NCBI GenBank assembly: GCA_030539035.1
Contig: JAUNSU010000003.1
Span: 10,368 to 74,367 of the forward strand
Source of the DNA: Planctomycetia bacterium
Lineage (GTDB): Bacteria; Planctomycetota; Planctomycetia; Pirellulales; Thermoguttaceae
Length of the DNA: 64,000 nt
Reading direction: 5' to 3'
The translations under genes were made by a program, and so were the position numbers. Shown piece after piece: positions 32,141 to 42,405 of the stretch (positions are counted from its first letter, which is position 1; every line of letters begins with the position of its first letter). The notes under the pieces were generated by a model, which made no database searches, was not told the DNA's origin, and worked only from the letters and a program-made list of their open reading frames with translations.

Positions 32141-33973
32141 TCAGGAAGATTTCGAAGATTTCCCGGAATATCGAATTTCCAGGGGAAAAGGAACTGTCGA
32201 TATCATCGTGATCATTTTTCGGACACCGCAAACCGCCCAGTACAAAAGATACCAAACGGCGGCGATGATCAGAACCGCCCGCCAAAAGACTCTTTGAAGA
32301 TAAAGCGTCAATTGTTTTTGAAGTCCATTACGAACCTCTTCAATCTTCGCTTTTATAAGTGCTTCTCCTTTTTTTACGAGATCGGCTGTAATATCGTCGA
32401 TACGTTTTTTGATCTTCTCTTCCGCCTTGCCGGACAGACCGTTGAGTCGTTCCTGAATTCCGGAAGAAAGATCGTCCAACGACTTTTTGAATAAAACCGT
32501 GTTGTCCTCTTTCTCTTTTTTGTCCTTGGCAAAGATTCCGGAACGGCTTTCGGAATCCTTCTTTTTTTCCGGACTGCGAGCAGATCCTTCCTCGGATCCG
32601 AAAGATTTATCTTCGATCTTCGGTTCTTTCGGATTTCTGTAAGCATCCAATAAGGGAGAAATATCACCGTTGGGCATTTTCCCCAGAGAAGGTGTCTCCG
32701 AATCCCTGTTTTTCCGATTATCGGACGAACCGTTTTTCTCCCTTCTTTCCCGTTGCGAATCGAGAAAATCTCGAATCGATCCGGATTCTTTTCGCTTAAG
32801 ATCTATACTGAGAAATCTCGCAAAGCTCGTCCGAATTCTTTCTTCAAGATCAGGAACATTTGTAAAGCGTTCAAGTTCTTTCCAGGTTTCCCCTTCCAGA
32901 GAGAAGAGAATAAAAGTTGGATATTCCTCAATATGCAAATCTCTGATCCGATTTTGAATCGCGGGCGAATCGACCGGGATCACATGGATCGGGTATCCTT
33001 CCTTTTTCAAATTTTCAAGGATCGGAATTGCGTTTTTGCATGGAACACATCCGTTGACTGTATAGGCGGCAAAAGCCAACGTTCGCTTTGTTTCCGCGAC
33101 GGGTCGAAAATAGGCATCTGCATCCATGATTGCCAATCGGCGCACATTCATCGGGGAATTATCTTCTTCTCCGTTCCGATCCGGGCAATCCCTTTCATCA
33201 CTTATTTTATTAACCCAAACCGCGGAAGGCGGAACATTATCAATATTTCCCGCCGGCTTTCTTCCATCGGCCGCATAATATAAAAGAGCGATCGGAATTG
33301 CACCGCCTCGCATGTTTTCCTCACTCAGGCGGTTTTCATCACCAACTCTCCAGGTGAGCAAACCGGAGATGCAAAGATTCCCGTCGATTTTTTGAACAAT
33401 GGCCGATCCGCTCTGTCCGCTTTTGGGGGCGGGAAGAAATTGCGCCGTATTTCCATAATAAGAATCGACCATTCCTTTCCAGGCCATTGCCCATCTTCCT
33501 TCACTGCATCCGGAAGAAAGAATGGTCTTATTTTTTTCCGGAACCGTTCCTTGCGGACCAAGTGGAACAAAAGGAGGATCATACGGCGCGAGATCTTCTT
33601 CCAATACGGTAATGATCGCAAAATCAAAAGGCGCTTTTTCATCATACCATACATTTTCCACTTTGCCACTGCATTCATAAAGTGATCCGTTTCCAAAGAA
33701 ATGCAATTTAATTTCATCCGCGCCCTGAACGACATGCCAATTGGTAAGGATCCAATATTTTCCTTCCGTTTTCAGGCAAACGGTTCCTGTTCCTATCGAT
33801 CCGAGCCGGCTTCCCTTTTTCGACGCGTGAACCCGGCAGGATGCGTAATGAACATCTTCCATATTGCGGGCTTGCCGGCATTCTGCAATCGCCTTGATAC
33901 AGTAATTTTCAGGGAAGCTGAAAAATACCGCAAACAGTACCGGCATAAAAAGAATTTTTAAATTTTTTGACAT
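32141..33973 (-). CDS. exported trypsin-like protease fused to a thioredoxin-like domain
   Basis: This 610-residue protein has a signal peptide (about 1-30), then a trypsin-like serine protease domain with a complete triad by motif: His80 in TNWHVV, Asp117 in FDFAII and Ser188 in GQSGSA. From about residue 295 a thioredoxin-like domain follows with Cys309-Val-Pro-Cys312 and the later IEEYPTFILF, which has the cis-Pro. Then comes a charged, Lys/Glu/Ser-rich region and one membrane helix at about 570-590 near the C-terminus. It starts 16 bases after the 603-residue gene, with the AAAGGATCA leader, so it is in the tail-like operon; an exported protease is unusual there. It may process or anchor a particle, or be a toxic effector or an unrelated recruit. 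Confidence 0.82.
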   Translation of the reverse strand: MSKNLKILFMPVLFAVFFSFPENYCIKAIAECRQARNMEDVHYASCRVHASKKGSRLGSIGTGTVCLKTEGKYWILTNWHVVQGADEIKLHFFGNGSLYECSGKVENVWYDEKAPFDFAIITVLEEDLAPYDPPFVPLGPQGTVPEKNKTILSSGCSEGRWAMAWKGMVDSYYGNTAQFLPAPKSGQSGSAIVQKIDGNLCISGLLTWRVGDENRLSEENMRGGAIPIALLYYAADGRKPAGNIDNVPPSAVWVNKISDERDCPDRNGEEDNSPMNVRRLAIMDADAYFRPVAETKRTLAFAAYTVNGCVPCKNAIPILENLKKEGYPIHVIPVDSPAIQNRIRDLHIEEYPTFILFSLEGETWKELERFTNVPDLEERIRTSFARFLSIDLKRKESGSIRDFLDSQRERREKNGSSDNRKNRDSETPSLGKMPNGDISPLLDAYRNPKEPKIEDKSFGSEEGSARSPEKKKDSESRSGIFAKDKKEKEDNTVLFKKSLDDLSSGIQERLNGLSGKAEEKIKKRIDDITADLVKKGEALIKAKIEEVRNGLQKQLTLYLQRVFWRAVLIIAAVWYLLYWAVCGVRKMITMISTVPFPLEIRYSGKSSKSS

Positions 33974-33989
33974 TGATCTTGATCCTTTC

Positions 33990-35801
33990 TTATTTTAATT
34001 CATTTTTTTGATAATTTTGGCAATATTGCGAATTGCAATATTTGCTTCTTACAAGAATAATCCCTGAATCTGTAAGGAAATTTCCCTCCGAATCTTCCGG
34101 CCAGCGCATCGAAGAAGAATAGATCCCGAGCGACGGACCGTTCGGATGAGAACACTCAATCGCAGTACAGGAAACATTACTGATCCACTGATCGCCGGTA
34201 TCATGTGCGTATTGACAATTTTCGTTCAAAAGATCATTGACCGTTAACGTTTGCACCGGCTCTTCCGGGGATATCTGTTCGATATTGAGCGTATTTGCAT
34301 TCATTACCGCAGGGGCGCTTGCAAGCGCGGTTTGATTTCCGTAAGTCCTGCCTTGATTGACCCCTCCGTAATCATGTCCGATTATCGCGGTTACCAACAT
34401 TAATTTCCCAGGAGCGGTGCAAATATTATCCATACATTCATGGAGCCATTCAAAAACTTCTTCTCTTGATGGAACATACATCCAATCCGTAATTACATTT
34501 GTAAAAATATCGACCAAACAGACATTTTCACAGACTTCATCGACTCCAACGGCTGCTCGGACAACAATCGGGGAGCTGAAGGCAAATTGATCACTGTTTG
34601 CGTAAGCAACAAGAGGGATCATGTTTCCAGGATATCCATTAATGGGACCGGGCGGAAAGGAGGAAGGATATTCTTCATTAAATGCAAATTGCATTTCAAA
34701 CTCTTTATACAATTTTTTGACGATGTAAGGATTTTGAAAAATACTGTTCGGACTGTCTCGCATCATCTCTTCCCGATGCATCGCAAGAATATCGGGAACA
34801 AGGGAATATTGAGCTGTAATATTGTTCGACAGAGTATATCGAATATAATTGTGTCCATAGGGGATATAATATTGCTCTTCCTTTTCTGTACGCGATTCCA
34901 AAAGCGTTCCGCTGCAAGACTGTCCGCTGTACAGAATGCAATCTTGTCTCCATGGAGTAGAAGAAGGAAAAACCTCTGTAAACCCGTCTTCCCATTCATG
35001 CGCGTATGTGCTGGAGGGATCATACACGATACCAGCACTGCAGCTTGTGAGCAATGGATCTTTATTTCCATTTCGATCTTGATAATTCCAAAAAGAAGTA
35101 ACCCAGGCTGCCGGGATTATGGCTAAATCGGTTTTTGGAGTATTAATGAGGAGATTTCCGTCTTCATCAGCACAAAGAGTGATCATCGCAATAAGATATG
35201 TGCTGTTTGCGGGATCGCTGCCTGAAGGAAAATTATCCCGGCACAGATTGCCAAGCATGTAAACGGATATATTATAATCGTAGAGATTATTATCGGCTGC
35301 CGGGCGCTGGAGAATAATAACGGCATAAATGATCGGTTCAAGGTACCGTTTGGGACCGGAATTTCTGATATGATCGCGCACCAGGTTAATACATTTTTGG
35401 AATTCGATCCCGTCGCAAGGACCATTTTCATCAACAAGGGTCCCGCGCCACCAGTAGTTTCCTGTTCCATCTAAAATTGATTGATAGGAATTATATCCGC
35501 ATTCATAAATGGTGATCATGGAAGATCCGCGGCCGAAAGTAATAACCCATCCGGGAAAATTGGCCGGTTCCATATGATATCGGTCTTTTCCGTTTACGAC
35601 GCCATCATAAAAAATCGGCATCCAATAGATCCCATCCGTTTGCGCCTTGATTTCTGCAAATCGTTCGGCATCGTAAGGTCCGAAATAAAGAATGGCGGAA
35701 GTTTGCGGCGGACATCGAAAGATACCGGAATCAGTGCATTCCGAACATTCTCTTTTTTTGCAGCAGCAGCCTGCATCCCATCTCGAATATTTTTTTGCCA
35801 T
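33990..35801 (-). CDS. hypothetical 603-residue Cys-rich protein in the tail-like operon
   Basis: I do not recognise this protein. It starts at the ATG at 35801, directly after the stop of the preceding gene, with a clear GGAGG. No signal peptide is seen. The first 45 residues hold a Cys cluster (GCCCKKRECSEC, then one more Cys) that could bind metal. The body is rich in aromatic and Gly/Asn/Ser residues and is probably beta-structured, as in tail fibres and adhesins, with further Cys pairs near the C-terminus (CNSQYCQNY). Its position after the tail-like genes and its size would fit a fibre, receptor-binding or baseplate protein. That is inference from context only. Confidence 0.65.
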   Translation of the reverse strand: MAKKYSRWDAGCCCKKRECSECTDSGIFRCPPQTSAILYFGPYDAERFAEIKAQTDGIYWMPIFYDGVVNGKDRYHMEPANFPGWVITFGRGSSMITIYECGYNSYQSILDGTGNYWWRGTLVDENGPCDGIEFQKCINLVRDHIRNSGPKRYLEPIIYAVIILQRPAADNNLYDYNISVYMLGNLCRDNFPSGSDPANSTYLIAMITLCADEDGNLLINTPKTDLAIIPAAWVTSFWNYQDRNGNKDPLLTSCSAGIVYDPSSTYAHEWEDGFTEVFPSSTPWRQDCILYSGQSCSGTLLESRTEKEEQYYIPYGHNYIRYTLSNNITAQYSLVPDILAMHREEMMRDSPNSIFQNPYIVKKLYKEFEMQFAFNEEYPSSFPPGPINGYPGNMIPLVAYANSDQFAFSSPIVVRAAVGVDEVCENVCLVDIFTNVITDWMYVPSREEVFEWLHECMDNICTAPGKLMLVTAIIGHDYGGVNQGRTYGNQTALASAPAVMNANTLNIEQISPEEPVQTLTVNDLLNENCQYAHDTGDQWISNVSCTAIECSHPNGPSLGIYSSSMRWPEDSEGNFLTDSGIILVRSKYCNSQYCQNYQKNELK

Positions 35802-35802
35802 T

Positions 35803-36123
35803 TTAATCCTCCGGACATTGCGCGGCGATGATCTCCCAATCACCGCTGTCTCTGTTTTTCTGGATAATCACAAGAGTTCCGGCAGACAGGGTTTCCGACC
35901 CGAGCAAAGGTGCTGTGCACGAATAGGAGATGGCACCTACCTCAACATTCCCGGGCGAATTTGCCGATACCGTACTTGCAACGGATCCGATCAAATGTCC
36001 GGAATTCTCTATTACAGCTCCCCGAGAGATTCGGCGGCGATGAATTTGATGATCCAGTTCGGGATCCGTTCCGCGAAGAACGATTTCCCTGCATATTTTT
36101 CCTGTAAAATGAATTTTAAGCAT
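35803..36123 (-). CDS. hypothetical 106-residue protein in the tail-like operon
   Basis: A small predicted beta-rich protein without recognised family. It starts with ATG at 36123, sharing bases with the stop of the previous gene (TAATG), and its own stop lies inside the ribosome-binding site region of the next gene, so it is translationally coupled on both sides. Segments such as GAVIENSGHLIGSV and SAGTLVIIQKNRDSGDWEI suggest a beta-sandwich or barrel. In tailed phages small proteins at this place may be tail-tip or fibre-associated parts, but nothing here proves that. Confidence 0.6.
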   Translation of the reverse strand: MLKIHFTGKICREIVLRGTDPELDHQIHRRRISRGAVIENSGHLIGSVASTVSANSPGNVEVGAISYSCTAPLLGSETLSAGTLVIIQKNRDSGDWEIIAAQCPED

Positions 36124-37103
36124 TAGTACACCTGCGGCAATCCCAGAATTTGAAAATCAACCGGTTCATACATGCATCCCCGAAGATTGACAGGAGATTG
36201 TATTCCGCCGCTGTTAAAAGGACTGATCCCCGTTCCTGAACTGTTAAGATAAAGAACTTCGGAAACCTCCTCCCCGTCTTTTGCCCCGCTGGTCAAGTAT
36301 TGACTGTAAGTTCCGAAAGAATTACCATCATCCCAGCTCCAAAGCCGGCGTAATCCTCCGGCAGTAAGAATATGCGTTCCCAAATTCGGAATATCGCGGT
36401 TAAAGCTCTCCGGATCGGCAAGAAGCTGGATATTGACCTGAAAATACTGCCAGCGCAAAGTCCCGTTTTTTGTATAATCCTTTTTCCTTTTCATTTCGAT
36501 ATTGTGAAGCAGAACCGTTCGGGGAGGAAAAATCATTCCGGTAATACTGACTTCACTGATATTGGTTTTATAGACATACATCCAGCTCGCGTTGACATCG
36601 ATCGACTGCAAATTATAAGTGAAGGCGATTTTGGATAATCCTCTTGTAATTGTTCCTTCAAAAGGGACACCGGCCGTATTTGTGAAGTCCCTTGCGGCAT
36701 CAATTCCATCCGGCCAAAAATACTTTGCGTCCTCCTTTTGCGTTGCCGACGAGATCTGAAAATTGCTTACGCGATATTTCCAGGGAGGAGTATCCTCCGT
36801 AAGAGGCTGCCCATCCAGATCGGTATCGAAGTCGAGCATTGAAGTACACCGGTATTCGACGGTGAGATCGGTTTTTCCGTCTCCCCGCGGTTTGGAGAGG
36901 CGCTTGACATCACAACTCTGGAGCCGCCAAATCGGATTATAATTCACGATTGATCCGGGCAAAGGCAAATATCGGATAAAGGTAAACATATCGTCGGTAT
37001 TCTGCAAGCGATAAGTTTCCTCAAATCTGCATATTTTTGCTCCGTCCTTTTCCACTGCGCCGCCCAGAATTTTCTTTCCAAGCAATTCGTAATTGACAGA
37101 CAT
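36123..37103 (-). CDS. hypothetical 326-residue protein, possible tail or baseplate part
   Basis: Not recognised by motif. The product has no signal peptide, no coiled coil and few Cys, and appears to be an alpha/beta or mostly beta soluble protein with many aromatic residues (SWMYVYKTNISEV, FPPRTVLLHNIEMKRK). AAGGAA precedes the ATG. It takes the place directly after the tail chaperone frameshift gene, where a tailed phage normally has its tape-measure protein, but it is too short and lacks the helical repeats expected of one. A distal-tail or baseplate role is possible. It ends in a one-base-shared stop-start with the next gene. Confidence 0.65.
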   Translation of the reverse strand: MSVNYELLGKKILGGAVEKDGAKICRFEETYRLQNTDDMFTFIRYLPLPGSIVNYNPIWRLQSCDVKRLSKPRGDGKTDLTVEYRCTSMLDFDTDLDGQPLTEDTPPWKYRVSNFQISSATQKEDAKYFWPDGIDAARDFTNTAGVPFEGTITRGLSKIAFTYNLQSIDVNASWMYVYKTNISEVSITGMIFPPRTVLLHNIEMKRKKDYTKNGTLRWQYFQVNIQLLADPESFNRDIPNLGTHILTAGGLRRLWSWDDGNSFGTYSQYLTSGAKDGEEVSEVLYLNSSGTGISPFNSGGIQSPVNLRGCMYEPVDFQILGLPQVY

Positions 37104-37106
37104 ATT

Positions 37107-37409
37107 TTATTTTCCTTTTTCTTTTTTACTGTAGACAGACTGTAAAATGGAAAACAGCATTTCATTTTTTCTGTTCATATCTTTTTCTCCATCTTCTTCA
37201 TAAGAGAACTTTTTTGTCTTTTTGAGTCGAAGCCCGCCCTGGAGCAATTCCTTTTCCAGATCGGCGGGAACAGATCGTCCTTTCAGAAGAATCTGCAGCA
37301 GAAGATAAACGCCAAGAGAACGAATATAATCCGATCGGTCCGGATAAAAAGCGCCTTCCATTTCCAGTTCACGAAAGGCGTATTCTTCGATCAGATCCCG
37401 AGGGGTCAA
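37107..37409 (-). CDS. tail-chaperone extension, probably made by -1 frameshifting
   Basis: Read on its own, this frame begins with TTG at 37409 and has no ribosome-binding site, so it is unlikely to be started separately. It is in the -1 frame relative to the upstream gene (37457-37813). That frame is open back to a TGA near 37499, and a nine-A run at 37485-37493 lies in the overlap. A -1 slip there would give one protein of about 235 residues: 109 from the first frame, 26 from the linking stretch and 100 here. The linking stretch (VLIRFYCQRFGLDP and onward) is protein-like. This matches the G/GT-type tail chaperone pairs of tailed phages. Confidence 0.72.
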   Translation of the reverse strand: MTPRDLIEEYAFRELEMEGAFYPDRSDYIRSLGVYLLLQILLKGRSVPADLEKELLQGGLRLKKTKKFSYEEDGEKDMNRKNEMLFSILQSVYSKKEKGK

Positions 37410-37456
37410 ATGGACCGTTTTCGGATCCAGTCCGAATCGCTGGCAATAAAAGCGGA

Positions 37457-37813
37457 TCAGGACAGAGTATCTGTCGTTTTGAAATTTTTTTTTGCGCTTT
37501 CATATTCTTTTTTTTCAAGCCGTTGAATTTCTTCCGACAGATCAATAATTTTATTAATGATCTCAATCGCAGCGGAGAGATTTTCGCGCAATAAACGGAA
37601 GGCGCATTCCGCACCGAGAGGGGTACTGGTCTCTCCATCCAGAAGACAGACCGAAAGAATGTGCACGAATTTCTTTTCCGTCTCCGGAATATCCTGAAGC
37701 CGAATAAGATCGATCCCGTCCAGTCTGCGTATTTTATAATCTTCCTTTCCGACTTGAATTACAAAAGTATTTTCTTCAACTGTTCTGCTCATGAAGTTTT
37801 TAAGTGAAAACAT
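37457..37813 (-). CDS. phage tail assembly chaperone-like protein (G-type)
   Basis: This 118-residue, mostly helical protein lies directly after the tail-tube-like gene, the normal position of the tail assembly chaperone. The segment EDYKIRRLDGIDLIRLQDI followed by helices with LSVCLLDGETSTPLG fits the small chaperones that coat the tape-measure protein. The gene ends with a Lys-rich stretch encoded by eight- and nine-A runs, and its stop is crossed by the -1 open frame described for 37107-37409. AAAAAGGAA lies before the ATG. Family assignment rests on position, size and the frameshift signal rather than clear sequence identity. Confidence 0.7.
   Translation of the reverse strand: MFSLKNFMSRTVEENTFVIQVGKEDYKIRRLDGIDLIRLQDIPETEKKFVHILSVCLLDGETSTPLGAECAFRLLRENLSAAIEIINKIIDLSEEIQRLEKKEYESAKKNFKTTDTLS
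37485..37493 (-). promoter_or_regulatory. nine-A slippery run for -1 frameshifting
   Basis: On the minus strand the chaperone frame reads GCA AAA AAA AAT TTC, a run of nine A. The -1 frame is closed upstream by TGA at about 37499 and the zero frame is closed at 37457, so a productive slip must happen within about 40 bases, and this is the only good slippery site in that window. Confidence 0.72.
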
Positions 37814-38351: not shown

Positions 38352-38777
38352 TTATTCATAAAGGTCAATGATGATATCAACGGAAGCCTTGCAAGCATCC
38401 TGCAAGGCCTCTCCCTGATGCTGTTCAATGGATCGAACATAAATATTTTGCCCGTTGGGCAAAGAGAATCCCGACCGTTCCGGAAGACGTTCCGACCATG
38501 ATCCCGCAATCGCACTGCAAATCTCATAAAGACGGTCTGTTCCGCTGTTCATCGGAACGGACACTGTATGCCGAACCGCAAGCCGGATCGTTCGCTGCGT
38601 TTCCGTATGCATTGCCGTCGTTTGAACAATGATCGACAATTCTATCAGAAGCCGATTTTCCACTTCCTCTTTAAATTGATTGGGCATGAGGATATTCTCG
38701 GACACGATCTCCGGATAATTCTCTCCCAATGCAAGAAGATTTTGGCGAAAACGGGCAAGTACGTTTTTCAGATTCAT
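38352..38777 (-). CDS. phage tail-completion / neck-like protein
   Basis: This 141-residue product is first in the minus-strand operon and precedes the tube-like gene, the position of the tail-completion or neck protein (SPP1 gp17-like) in siphophages. It has an N-terminal helix and a mixed alpha/beta body with RLLIELSIIVQTTAMHTETQR and a C-terminal helix (ALQDACKASVDIIIDLYE). I cannot name a domain from sequence alone. A strong AAAGGAGAG stands before the ATG. Upstream is the 529-base divergent control region. Confidence 0.6.
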   Translation of the reverse strand: MNLKNVLARFRQNLLALGENYPEIVSENILMPNQFKEEVENRLLIELSIIVQTTAMHTETQRTIRLAVRHTVSVPMNSGTDRLYEICSAIAGSWSERLPERSGFSLPNGQNIYVRSIEQHQGEALQDACKASVDIIIDLYE

Positions 38778-39306
38778 GATCTCTCCTTTCCTTGATGGGG
38801 GTTCTTGCCGGCCGCAACCGGCGCCGGAAAGATATCAGATCCAATGCGTAAAATCAAGCGGCAGAATTATCAAAAGAAAAAACTTGTGATCCAAAATGAT
38901 AATTGCGGTCGATTGGAGTCAATCGGGATCCATGGATTATCGAAATATTTTCGATTAACAAAAGAACGTTGCCGCGCATCTTTTTGATTTCAACAAAAAA
39001 ACAAGCTCGCGAACAGCCAAACAGGGAATTCGCATTACTGTTCCCATTCCGGATATTTTCATTTTTTTTCTTTCCTTGCATACATTCTGTTTAACACGGA
39101 TTAACCTGATTCCCGCCGATCCGTTTTTTCTGCCGCTTGTTTTTCGGAAAAAGATCTATATCATCACGTCCATCGGAGAGACACAATCTTTCGTCCCTGC
39201 GGAAATCCGAATCAAAATACAAATGCAGTAAATGATCTCCGATCCGGGACGAATGATTTGTCCTTTCATATTTCGCAAACTTTAATTATTGGAAAAGGAC
39301 TGTCTT
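38778..39306. other. divergent control region of the phage-like island
   Basis: About 530 bases separate the minus-strand tail-like genes from the plus-strand head-like genes. No frame here has protein-like composition with a ribosome-binding site. The right end contains a promoter-like site (39258-39286). No repressor gene, attachment-site repeat or integrase is visible. A tape-measure, portal or terminase gene is not present in fragment form either. Confidence 0.6.
39258..39286 (+). promoter_or_regulatory. possible promoter for the head-like genes
   Basis: TTGTCC (39258-39263) and TTTAAT (39281-39286) are 17 bases apart. The -10 matches at five of six bases and the -35 at four. A transcript would begin about 14 bases before the scaffold-like ATG, leaving just enough room for its AAAGGA site. 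Confidence 0.45.
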
Positions 39307-40011
39307 ATGAATTTGTTCGACAAATTTGACACGAAGGAACAGTTGCTTTCTTTGATCGATCAAGCAATTGTCCAAGATGAAAATCAGAAGTTTTATCTTT
39401 CGGATTTCAACGGGGAATTCGAAAAAATGAAGCAGGATCTTATGAAAATGGAAGAGCTGAAATCCAATATGCTCTCACTTGAAAAAAAGAACCTGGAGCT
39501 TGAACAAACAGCAGAAACCCAAAAAAAGACCATTGAGGAGCTGAGTCAACTGAATCCGCTTGAACTTCAGGAAACGATCAAAAAGCTGGCGACTGAAAAA
39601 GCGCAGTGGTCTGTTGCTCTGGAAAAGATGGAAAAGGAAATGGGTCCGCTGAAAGAAGAACTGGAAATGTATCACCGAAAGGAAATCGACTCAAAAATCC
39701 AGGAAGCTCTTTTGCAGGCGGCCAAGGATCTGGGGATTCGACAAGAAGCTTTTCGGGATGTTGTACGTTTGGCTCCGCTTCTTTTTATCGACGAGCAGGG
39801 TAAGATCTGCACCGAAGACGGACTTACCGTTAAGCAACTCGTGGAAAAAGAAAAGAAGCTTTCGCCCCATTGGGATCCGATCTCGGTCGGCGGCGGAAGC
39901 CGATCGGTTGCGGCTGTTTTTCCGGCCAATATCAGCGGTCTGCGATTCGAAGAAGCGCGATCTCATCGGGATATCAGCGGTATGATCATAAACGCACCCA
40001 TTATTGAATAG
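39307..40011 (+). CDS. capsid scaffold-like protein
   Basis: From the ATG at 39307 (AAAGGA upstream) the product has 234 residues. Residues about 30-125 form a long charged coiled coil with regular Leu spacing (LSLEKKNLELEQTAETQKK and onward), and the C-terminus is compact with a Gly/Ser-rich stretch (SVGGGSRSVAAVFP). This plan, together with its place directly upstream of the major capsid gene with a 13-base gap, fits a scaffolding protein that guides capsid assembly. No protease domain is seen. Identity to known scaffolds cannot be judged by eye. Confidence 0.72.
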   Translation: MNLFDKFDTKEQLLSLIDQAIVQDENQKFYLSDFNGEFEKMKQDLMKMEELKSNMLSLEKKNLELEQTAETQKKTIEELSQLNPLELQETIKKLATEKAQWSVALEKMEKEMGPLKEELEMYHRKEIDSKIQEALLQAAKDLGIRQEAFRDVVRLAPLLFIDEQGKICTEDGLTVKQLVEKEKKLSPHWDPISVGGGSRSVAAVFPANISGLRFEEARSHRDISGMIINAPIIE

Positions 40012-40024
40012 AAGAGGTAAATTA

Positions 40025-41179
40025 ATGACAGCAATCAACAGCTTTGAATGGAATAATCTTAAACGGGATTTCTCTGAAGTTCTTTCGACTTTGGTCTCCA
40101 ATACACCCGGCTTTATTAACCTTTTTCCTTTGAAAGGAAAATCGACACAGACCAAACACGAATGGCTCGAAGATCAAATCAAGCCGAAGCAGATCGCTTA
40201 TTCGGCGTATGATGCGGACTCGGTTCCAGGCACCTTTACGGTGAGTAATTCCGCGGGATGGGAACTCAATGATTACGTGAAAATTTTCGGCAATCCCGCG
40301 ATTTTCAAGATCATTTCGACTTCGAGCACTTCGATCGCCGTTTCTCTTGTTGCGTCGAACGGCGGATTTACCGCACTTTCCGGATCCGGATCTCCTTCCG
40401 CCGATGCGGGAATTCTCTGCTTTGTTTCCCGGCCCATGAACGAAGGAAGTTCTGCCGGAATTGATGTTCATCGGCAATCGTCGACCGAATTCAATTATTC
40501 TCAAATTCTGCGGCGCGATATCACCTTGACAGCGACCTCGACTGCCGTTCAAACGCTTGGAATGGAAAATGCTCTTCCTTATCAGGAAGAAGAAGCGATG
40601 CGGCAAATCGTATACGAAATAAATCTGATCTCGCTTTTCGGAGTACGGCAGCAGCGGACCGCGTCAACGCTTGGAACCGCCGGCGGTCTTTATTATTACG
40701 GAACGCAGACCGGCGGATTGTGCGATGATTATTCTGTTTCTCCTGTCCCGCTTTCGACGAATATCATCAACAAAGCGGCGCAAAAAATCGTGGAAGCGGG
40801 CGGAACGCCTTCGGTGATCCTTTGCGGAACCGGACAGGCAAGAATGATCTCGCGTCTTTACACAAATACCTTGAACATTCAAAGGGCCGATCAGGTTCGA
40901 GGTTCCTATGTTTCCCAAATCGTGAATGAATCGACCGGAGGTCTTATGCAGGTTTTCGCTGAACCCAATATGATCGATTCCGATATTTGGGTAATCGATC
41001 CGAGCGGATTCGGACTTGTTTGGCTCCGCGATCTTGTCTCTTCGGATTCCACCTCTCCCAATCAGGATGGATTCAGCCGAAAGCTGATCGGCGAATTTTC
41101 TCTTGAATTCAAAAATGCGAAGCAAAAACTTTGCCGGGTTCAGGGATTGCAGCCGTCCGCAGCCGCTCTTAACACTTGA
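40025..41179 (+). CDS. phage major capsid protein, SU10/DUF5309-like
   Basis: The 384-residue product resembles the SU10-type major capsid proteins (DUF5309), which have an HK97-like fold. Supporting segments are RDFSEVLSTLVSNTPGFINLFP at the start, TKHEWLEDQI and QTLGMENALPYQEEEAMRQIVYEINLISLFG, then a ILCGTGQARMISRLY helix and VWLRDLVSSDSTSPNQDGFS, with EFSLEFKNAKQKLCRVQGL at the end. This is the best-supported phage gene in the island. It starts at the ATG at 40025 with AGAGG upstream. An intact, full-length shell gene without packaging genes nearby is the central oddity of the region. Confidence 0.85.
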   Translation: MTAINSFEWNNLKRDFSEVLSTLVSNTPGFINLFPLKGKSTQTKHEWLEDQIKPKQIAYSAYDADSVPGTFTVSNSAGWELNDYVKIFGNPAIFKIISTSSTSIAVSLVASNGGFTALSGSGSPSADAGILCFVSRPMNEGSSAGIDVHRQSSTEFNYSQILRRDITLTATSTAVQTLGMENALPYQEEEAMRQIVYEINLISLFGVRQQRTASTLGTAGGLYYYGTQTGGLCDDYSVSPVPLSTNIINKAAQKIVEAGGTPSVILCGTGQARMISRLYTNTLNIQRADQVRGSYVSQIVNESTGGLMQVFAEPNMIDSDIWVIDPSGFGLVWLRDLVSSDSTSPNQDGFSRKLIGEFSLEFKNAKQKLCRVQGLQPSAAALNT

Positions 41180-41214
41180 TCGAATCATTGATCAGCACAG
41201 AAAGGATCATTCTC

Positions 41215-41424
41215 ATGAAAATCATTTCCAGGGAAACGGATCACCTGTATAAAAGGATTGTATACGAAGCCGGCGGTGAGCGAAAAATTCTTGTTTTTCC
41301 CTGTTCCGGTTCTTTTGAAGAACAGGAAAATCGGCTTTTAATAAATAAAGCAAATAATCGGGATCCGATTACCGCAGATCCTGTTCCAAATACAAAAACG
41401 ACAAGAAAGAAAACGGTAAAATAA
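41215..41424 (+). CDS. hypothetical small protein after the capsid gene
   Basis: A 69-residue product starting at the ATG at 41215, with the GAAAGGATCA leader also present before two minus-strand island genes. It is basic at the C-terminus (TRKKTVK) and has a short beta-like core (KRIVYEAGGERKILVFPC). Not recognised. Small genes at this place in phages may encode capsid decoration or head-completion proteins, which would fit but is not shown. A strong terminator follows immediately. Confidence 0.55.
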   Translation: MKIISRETDHLYKRIVYEAGGERKILVFPCSGSFEEQENRLLINKANNRDPITADPVPNTKTTRKKTVK

Positions 41425-41558: not shown

Positions 41559-41996
41559 ATGAACTGGATCACACTGGAAGAGGCCAATCTTTACTTTTCG
41601 GAGCGGCCCTGGTCGAATCATTGGGACAGTGCCGAAATCGCAATAAAAACAAAATGCCTGATCTGGTCGGAAAAACTTTTCAAATGTTCATTCCTTTGGT
41701 CAACCAGTGCTTTTACCGTTGGACAAAACGGGAATGAGATCCCGCACGATCAAATTAAAGCGGCTCTGTGCGAACAGGCAAACTGGCTGTTGACCCATTC
41801 GATTGAATCAGGATCGGACGATATTCCCGCTGCCATTGAATCGTTCAGCGTAGGAAGCCTGTCCGCCCGATTCAATAATAAGGAAAAGGAAAAATGGATC
41901 AGTTCCCTTGCCGTTCAACTGATCGGAAAATTGGGATCCCCCATCCGCGCGAACAGTGAAAACGGGTCCATTGAATCAAGCCTGCTCGAAGGATAG
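41559..41996 (+). CDS. DnaT-like phage head-tail connector
   Basis: The 145-residue product fits the DnaT-like/gp6-type connector family: MNWITLEEANLYFSERPW at the start, the helix AEIAIKTKCLIWSEKLF, the segment GNEIPHDQIKAALCEQANWLL, and the late SVGSLSARFNN. In phages these adaptors sit between portal and tail. AAGGAG precedes the ATG. It lies 66 bases past the terminator, and 13 bases before the next gene. The name DnaT-like reflects a distant family match and does not imply DNA replication. Confidence 0.77.
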   Translation: MNWITLEEANLYFSERPWSNHWDSAEIAIKTKCLIWSEKLFKCSFLWSTSAFTVGQNGNEIPHDQIKAALCEQANWLLTHSIESGSDDIPAAIESFSVGSLSARFNNKEKEKWISSLAVQLIGKLGSPIRANSENGSIESSLLEG

Positions 41997-42009
41997 AAAG
42001 GAAAACAAA

Positions 42010-42405
42010 ATGGGAATACTGGAATCACTTTTTGAAGGATCCGACAGCATTGTCTCCAGGGCTTTTCAGTTTTTCGGAACAACGGCAACTCTTTATTACC
42101 GGGAAGAGAATGCCGGATCCCCGTCAGGATCAGGTTCACCGGAAGGAGAGATCGGGAATGATACCGCAGTCGATGTTCTCTTTATTCCGGAAAAAATCAG
42201 TGAATCAGATCTTGTACGCGAAAACGGGCTCGGATCGAAAAGATCCGTTCTTTCAGGAATAATCCGGACAACAGGATTGCCGCGTGTTCCGAGATCGCAT
42301 ATCGACTCAATTCATTATCGGAATATCCGATACCGGATCACGGAAGTCCATCAGGAGCTGATCGGCGATACAGGAACAATTGTTTCCATTACCGCGATAC
42401 GGTAA
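42010..42405 (+). CDS. phage head-tail joining-like protein
   Basis: From the ATG at 42010 (AAAGGA upstream) the product has 131 residues. The C-terminal half, with VDVLFIPEKISESDLVRENG, then SHIDSIHYRNIRYRITEVHQE and TGTIVSITAIR, resembles small beta-barrel head-tail joining proteins (SPP1 gp16-like). Its place directly after the connector is the usual one. The frame is open further upstream but would overlap the previous gene. A bidirectional terminator lies downstream. Confidence 0.68.
   Translation: MGILESLFEGSDSIVSRAFQFFGTTATLYYREENAGSPSGSGSPEGEIGNDTAVDVLFIPEKISESDLVRENGLGSKRSVLSGIIRTTGLPRVPRSHIDSIHYRNIRYRITEVHQELIGDTGTIVSITAIR

Follow-up and report, generated by a model that had tools for sequence, protein, structure and literature searches.

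In phage lambda, the gene that follows the tail tube gene encodes the tail assembly chaperone G and, through a -1 slip near the 3' end of G, the fusion GT, in which T forms the C-terminal part and is read in the -1 frame (PMC5009743). In the lambda model, G associates with the tape measure protein and T with the tube protein, and the ratio of the two products is determined by the low rate of slipping (PMC5009743). The G-GT frameshift is described as conserved among long-tailed phages in a passage of PMC5009743 that cites Xu, Hendrix and Duda 2004. A different use of tailed-phage genes is seen in RcGTA and other GTAs, whose caudovirus-derived head, tail and packaging genes are fixed at several host loci, five in the case of RcGTA (PMC9662315). 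GTAs are recognised there by kinship to caudoviruses, endogenization that is often multi-locus, vertical inheritance, packaging of host DNA, failure to package the element in full, and delivery. PMC9662315 names no planctomycete GTA, and a literature search, with subscription journals mostly outside its reach, found none.

Here, we analyse a window, that is, a stretch of 64,000 nt, from a member of the planctomycete family Thermoguttaceae, represented by a 4.2 Mb MAG (G000) of 250 contigs that is 93% complete. Judging from the sequence, positions 37813-37107 of the minus strand very probably encode a tail assembly chaperone of the G-GT type, expressed through programmed -1 ribosomal frameshifting. 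The gene resembles its counterparts in lambda and other long-tailed phages in its place after the tube gene, in the position of the slip, in the C-terminal, -1 frame T and in the chaperone fold of G. It differs in the slip site, here A_AAA_AAA or A_AAA_AAT where its relatives mostly have A_AAA_AAC or A_AAA_AAA, and in that no tape measure gene comes after GT in this genome. The wider setting is like that of RcGTA and other GTAs in having head, tail and packaging genes of caudovirus descent at several host loci; unlike RcGTA, it belongs to a different phylum, has an SU10-type major capsid protein (MCP) and is known from its genes alone. The frameshift is in kind an ordinary G-GT case with a well-known mechanism; its scattered setting is the more unusual and the more interesting part.

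Slip site and identity of G

All frames were recomputed on both strands of the window (Table 1). The zero-frame ORF comprises 118 codons and a TGA at 37459-37457, and the -1 frame, closed by a TGA at 37500-37502, is thereafter open as far as a TAA at 37107-37109. The original prediction had a 118-codon gene ending near the A9 run and closing at 37457, and a -1 frame open to 37107, all of which we reproduced; the stop that closes the -1 frame, which it put at about 37499, lies at the position given above. The two ORFs overlap by 43 nt (37499-37457) with the A9 inside, in agreement with a predicted productive stretch of some 40 bases. Across the site the zero frame reads GAA AGC GCA AAA AAA AAT TTC. 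A slip at A_AAA_AAA or at A_AAA_AAT would give a fusion of exactly 235 residues either way, the two differing by one residue, and this agrees with the length of about 235 that had been forecast. A second in-phase run, an A8 at 37508-37515, is present in G; a -1 slip there runs into the TGA at 37500-37502 and would give a protein of almost G length, so that the A9 alone is productive. The RNA 3' of the slip site folds better than shuffled sequences (z = -3.3 for 85 nt, z = -1.7 for 65 nt), and the 6-bp hairpin after the heptamer is a suggestive candidate stimulator, with a signal that depends on the length of RNA folded.

Table 1 Features of the predicted G-GT gene and the surrounding structural cassette in the window.
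Feature	Position	Strand	Basis or remark
Trypsin-thioredoxin fusion protein	32141..33973	-	Pfam; recurs beside these elements in relatives
p617, Cys-rich	33990..35843	-	494-aa Cys-rich ORF at same position in G003
p106, small protein	35803..36123	-	Conserved after p326
p326, tail structural protein straight after GT	36123..37103	-	Comes after tape measure gene in prophage-like relatives
T, -1 frame extension, 130 open codons	37107..37499	-	G+T = GT, 235 aa (predicted); homologues in 22 family genomes
G, tail assembly chaperone (predicted), zero frame, 118 aa	37457..37813	-	ATG behind AAGGA; aligned with 5 homologues
Possible stimulatory hairpin	37461..37475	-	6-bp stem, 8-11 nt 3' of heptamer
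A9 slippery run, predicted -1 shift site	37485..37493	-	In-phase A_AAA_AAA and A_AAA_AAT
Tail tube (major tail protein), 151 aa	37885..38340	-	PHROG 10528, weak (E 0.019); homologue directly before G in relatives
p141, tail terminator/completion protein (inferred by position)	38352..38777	-	Synteny
Probable scaffolding protein	39289..40011	+	Position before MCP; homologues in L010 and L012
Major capsid protein, SU10_MCP family	40004..41179	+	Pfam E 7e-44; PHROG 1328 E 3e-36
p82, small conserved protein	41176..41424	+	Relatives
Head-tail adaptor	41559..41996	+	PHROG 541 E 4e-5
p149, head-tail connector region protein	41956..42405	+	Relatives

Family searches gave no Pfam family for G or T, no PHROG for T and nothing solid among the PHROGs for G. 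The AlphaFold model of G (pLDDT 84.5) had as its first PDB match the HK97 tail assembly chaperone 2ob9 (probability 0.99, TM about 0.5), at an E of 0.05 and 13% identity that mean fold likeness only. Against viral structure models it matched several named tail assembly chaperones. TM values for the fold evidence as a whole were modest, about 0.5-0.6. The chaperone-like fold of the model and the tube gene in front together make a firm case for G as a predicted chaperone. The gene had been expected to lie between tube and tape measure genes; the tube side of this claim stands, on a weak PHROG match to a major tail protein and on synteny, and the tape measure side does not hold in G000, G001 and G003, where p326 follows GT, but does for orthologues of the gene in prophage-like relatives.

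In the proposed mechanism, most ribosomes would read G to its TGA, and a minority would slip back one base at the A9 and continue into T to make GT. As in lambda, G would bind the tape measure protein, the tube subunit would be recruited by the T portion of GT, and the slip rate would thereby set the G:GT ratio. We infer that the slip occurs, and likewise its efficiency and role; both G and GT would then be produced.

Conservation in relatives and mechanism of the slip

A six-sequence T profile, run over 119 genomes of the family Thermoguttaceae, matched 23 loci in 22 genomes and in 5 of 40 genera (the genus tally takes only the better genomes). The same arrangement recurs at every one of the 23 loci: T is read in frame -1 relative to G in frame 0, and their overlap contains an in-phase slippery heptamer. 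The comparison with homologues proposed in the original prediction, directed at the A run and the open -1 frame, thus found both kept throughout. The heptamer is A_AAA_AAC at 12 loci, A_AAA_AAA at 10 and A_AAT_TTT at one (G001), and it falls at codon 107-117 in 19 of the 23. The commonest of these is also that of the g-t gene of HCTV-2 (PMC5009743), a haloarchaeal virus that we liken to these loci by its heptamer alone. Slippery runs are retained at 57-68% G+C in many of the loci, and the gene order tube-G-GT is kept among relatives.

In-phase X_XXY_YYZ heptamers occurred at only 4 of 2491 upstream codon positions of the same G genes, against 23 of 23 overlaps, and chance is therefore not the explanation. 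The loci are all related by descent and hence not independent, with the pairs L051/L052 and L054/L055 nearly identical. When codons were shuffled synonymously, keeping the encoded Lys-Lys/Asn and local codon use, the heptamer appeared in 18-87% of draws per locus, which is weak evidence for any single locus, since coding for Lys-Lys/Asn is in itself conducive to A runs. The evidential force consequently lies in the frame relation and the position across loci and not in one heptamer.

Two other routes to a T product were weighed against ribosomal slippage. In the first, RNA polymerase would gain or lose an A within the A9, and normal ribosomes would continue into T; we consider this very unlikely. 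An A9 is found in the window and at the nine other A_AAA_AAA loci, all of the latter in the genus g21, but at the remaining 13 loci the A run measures only 4-8 (A6 in three) and the in-phase ribosomal heptamer is nevertheless kept, and the G001 site is A_AAT_TTT. Runs of 4-8 A are poor substrates for polymerase slippage, and these 13 loci thus point to a common mechanism that is ribosomal rather than transcriptional. Polymerase slippage may add to the ribosomal slip at the A9; it cannot be the mechanism for the whole family. The second route, translation of T on its own without fusion, by reinitiation or coupling at TTG 37409 or upstream, is slightly less likely still: the zero-frame stop lies 3 nt or less from the heptamer at eight loci, bringing termination and -1 entry close together, but elsewhere it is up to 96 nt downstream, the heptamer is in phase at every locus, the T frame has no ATG, GTG or TTG before 37409, and the conserved T motif YCxRFGLDP is encoded upstream of that codon. 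The original prediction had likewise seen TTG as the only start of the downstream frame and had named a separately translated gene as evidence against the fusion; similarity of the T protein to its genus and family homologues begins at a distance of 2-4 residues from the slip, before this only possible separate start.

Structural cassette and tape measure genes

The G-GT gene with its programmed -1 ribosomal frameshift, as we read it, belongs to a phage structural cassette at 32.1-42.4 kb of the window, in which the plus strand carries the head genes and the minus strand the tail genes, and all its ORFs are intact. Ordinary genes flank the cassette (lpxC and an oxidoreductase gene; a fucose isomerase-like gene and trmU), and the window encodes DUF1559 proteins of the kind typical for planctomycetes. 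No integrase, terminase, portal or tape measure gene was recognised around the cassette within the window, and the contiguous packaging, head, tail and integration genes of an ordinary prophage are not found there. A promoter and terminator scan of the window was uninformative. No relatives of p326 were found in viral_contigs, and fold matches to it were discarded, as its low-confidence model makes such hits meaningless. Trypsin-like and thioredoxin fusions occur at differing ends of phage-derived elements, namely in the window, at L012:496-2937, at L017:4583-7144 and at L010:17153-17998, the last abutting a portal fragment.

The position directly after GT is taken by p326 in G000 and in two congeners, G001 and G003, and no tape measure gene is present there. 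Prophage-like relatives have a tape measure gene after GT, mostly beginning MSDxVxTLALxV and encoding 1026 aa in G023 and 834 aa in G011 (also present in G094, G118 and G126). The corresponding gene of G002 is truncated to 274 aa and lies beside a Cas9-like locus. Directly behind it is a Cas2/Cas1/Cas9-like cluster (L010:846-5777, contig C1 of G002; named by eye from the sequence), with the Cas9-like gene in three ORFs of 242, 106 and 809 aa.

A tape measure profile gave nothing clear in G000, G001 or G003, and sequence searches and a DNA pattern with 3 mismatches were all empty in the 93% complete G000, a result that may reflect divergence or the roughly 7% of missing sequence. In G001, which did not contribute to the profile, a weak match (E 0.05) corresponds to the beginning of an ORF of 274 aa that lies on another contig; this ORF came top of 2129 frames in a second test (E 0.018). 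A 350-aa partner in G003 was reached only through the G001 ORF (E 0.005), and its E in the second test was 6.1. The two ORFs have similar starts and ends, and they may be shortened, relocated tape measure genes, for which they are weak candidates. At the usual 0.15 nm per residue, tape measures of these lengths would correspond to tails of roughly 40-55 nm.

The g21 genomes (L057-L062, L064, L065, L067, L068) hold a second group of tube-G-GT cassettes with no recognisable tape measure gene behind. The next gene there is either of host type (pyrE-like in L068) or an ORF rich in Arg, about 450-490 aa long. This group is possibly a second dispersed element.

Packaging genes and the nature of the element

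Pfam searches for the portal and TerL (PF04860, PF03354) were empty in G000, and the absence that they implied was overturned by a lineage-specific portal query from the G023 prophage. This query matched in every member of the genus, in G000 on contig C84 only, and the Pfam blanks were thus false negatives. The C84 match belongs to an intact TerS-TerL-portal cassette (about C84:32843-36376) amid host genes identified by sequence as nuo, a uvrD-like helicase gene and leuB. Both cassettes of G000 have host genes on both sides. In G001 and G003, TerS-TerL-portal adjoins recA and a KaiC-like gene, and the gene order is the same in both. The KaiC-like ATPase gene and recA lie directly beside the packaging genes at L040:14965-16969 and L043:3967-6059, and co-regulation with DNA damage through this neighbourhood is possible. 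The shared recA site implies that the packaging genes have been there since the common ancestor of the two species, unless inserted independently, and have stayed intact.

In all, the loci are on C240 and C84 in G000, on C67, C73 and C44 in G001 (candidate C31) and on C389 and C223 in G003 (candidate C440); G003 also has a prophage copy (C517), used as a comparison. The G001 tube gene is on a further contig, apart from its cassette. The capsid-tail cassettes of G001 and of the window lie at different places on the chromosome, and the TerL-portal genes of G001 and G003 are thus the only ones for which a shared site is shown. G001 also carries a truncated second portal gene by a minor head protein-like ORF (L045:5209-5844, contig C70), a probable remnant of another prophage.

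In the portal tree, G000, G001 and the C223 copy of G003 group together (98/97), separately from every prophage copy. The same three species form a clade in the TerL tree (91/93), whose sister is the G003 prophage (99/98). Identity between the three species is 60-69% for TerL, portal, MCP and tube, which have no stops and whose synonymous sites are saturated (pS 0.76-0.83, pN 0.21-0.29), and 32-40% for G and T.

With G-GT in a structural cassette and TerS, TerL and portal elsewhere among host genes, the set looks, on balance, less like a prophage than like a GTA-like particle system that is dispersed and inherited vertically. The main rival for the setting is a decaying prophage remnant in which the frameshift would be an unused relic, and we judge it unlikely. 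Decay would fit the lack of a recognised integrase, terminase, portal or tape measure gene beside G-GT, and it explains the cassette sites that differ between species and the fragments in G002 (truncated tape measure gene and portal fragment) and G001 (second portal). However, it does not explain the intact cassette ORFs, the portal and TerL clade apart from prophages or the recA site common to two species, and the identity retained by TerL, portal, MCP and tube despite saturated synonymous sites also argues against it.

A fuller version of the GTA-like reading is more tentative and falls a little short of an even chance. Under it, a genus of Thermoguttaceae would have a domesticated GTA with genes over two to four chromosomal loci, including a packaging cassette (beside recA in two species), a capsid-tail cassette with the conserved G-GT frameshift, a tube gene that in one species lies elsewhere, and a tape measure gene that has been shortened and moved (the 274- and 350-aa candidates), and the frameshift ratio would have been selected for short-tailed, host-serving particles. 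Among the features by which GTAs are recognised, we found kinship to caudoviruses (MCP, TerL, TerS, portal and adaptor) and, by sequence, endogenization at multiple loci. Vertical inheritance of the element is suggested by the three-congener clades and by the recA site of G001 and G003, with the capsid-tail site not shared. Since kinship and multi-locus endogenization are the only ones found, we call the element GTA-like by anatomy and do not file it as a GTA.

The frameshift adds a planctomycete branch to a textbook case of recoding. If the GTA-like reading is true, Planctomycetota would have a GTA, a tailed phage would have been domesticated independently once more, and a recoding signal would have been kept though the tape measure gene that it serves has left the locus. 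As several species of one genus carry the element, its vertical inheritance is directly testable.
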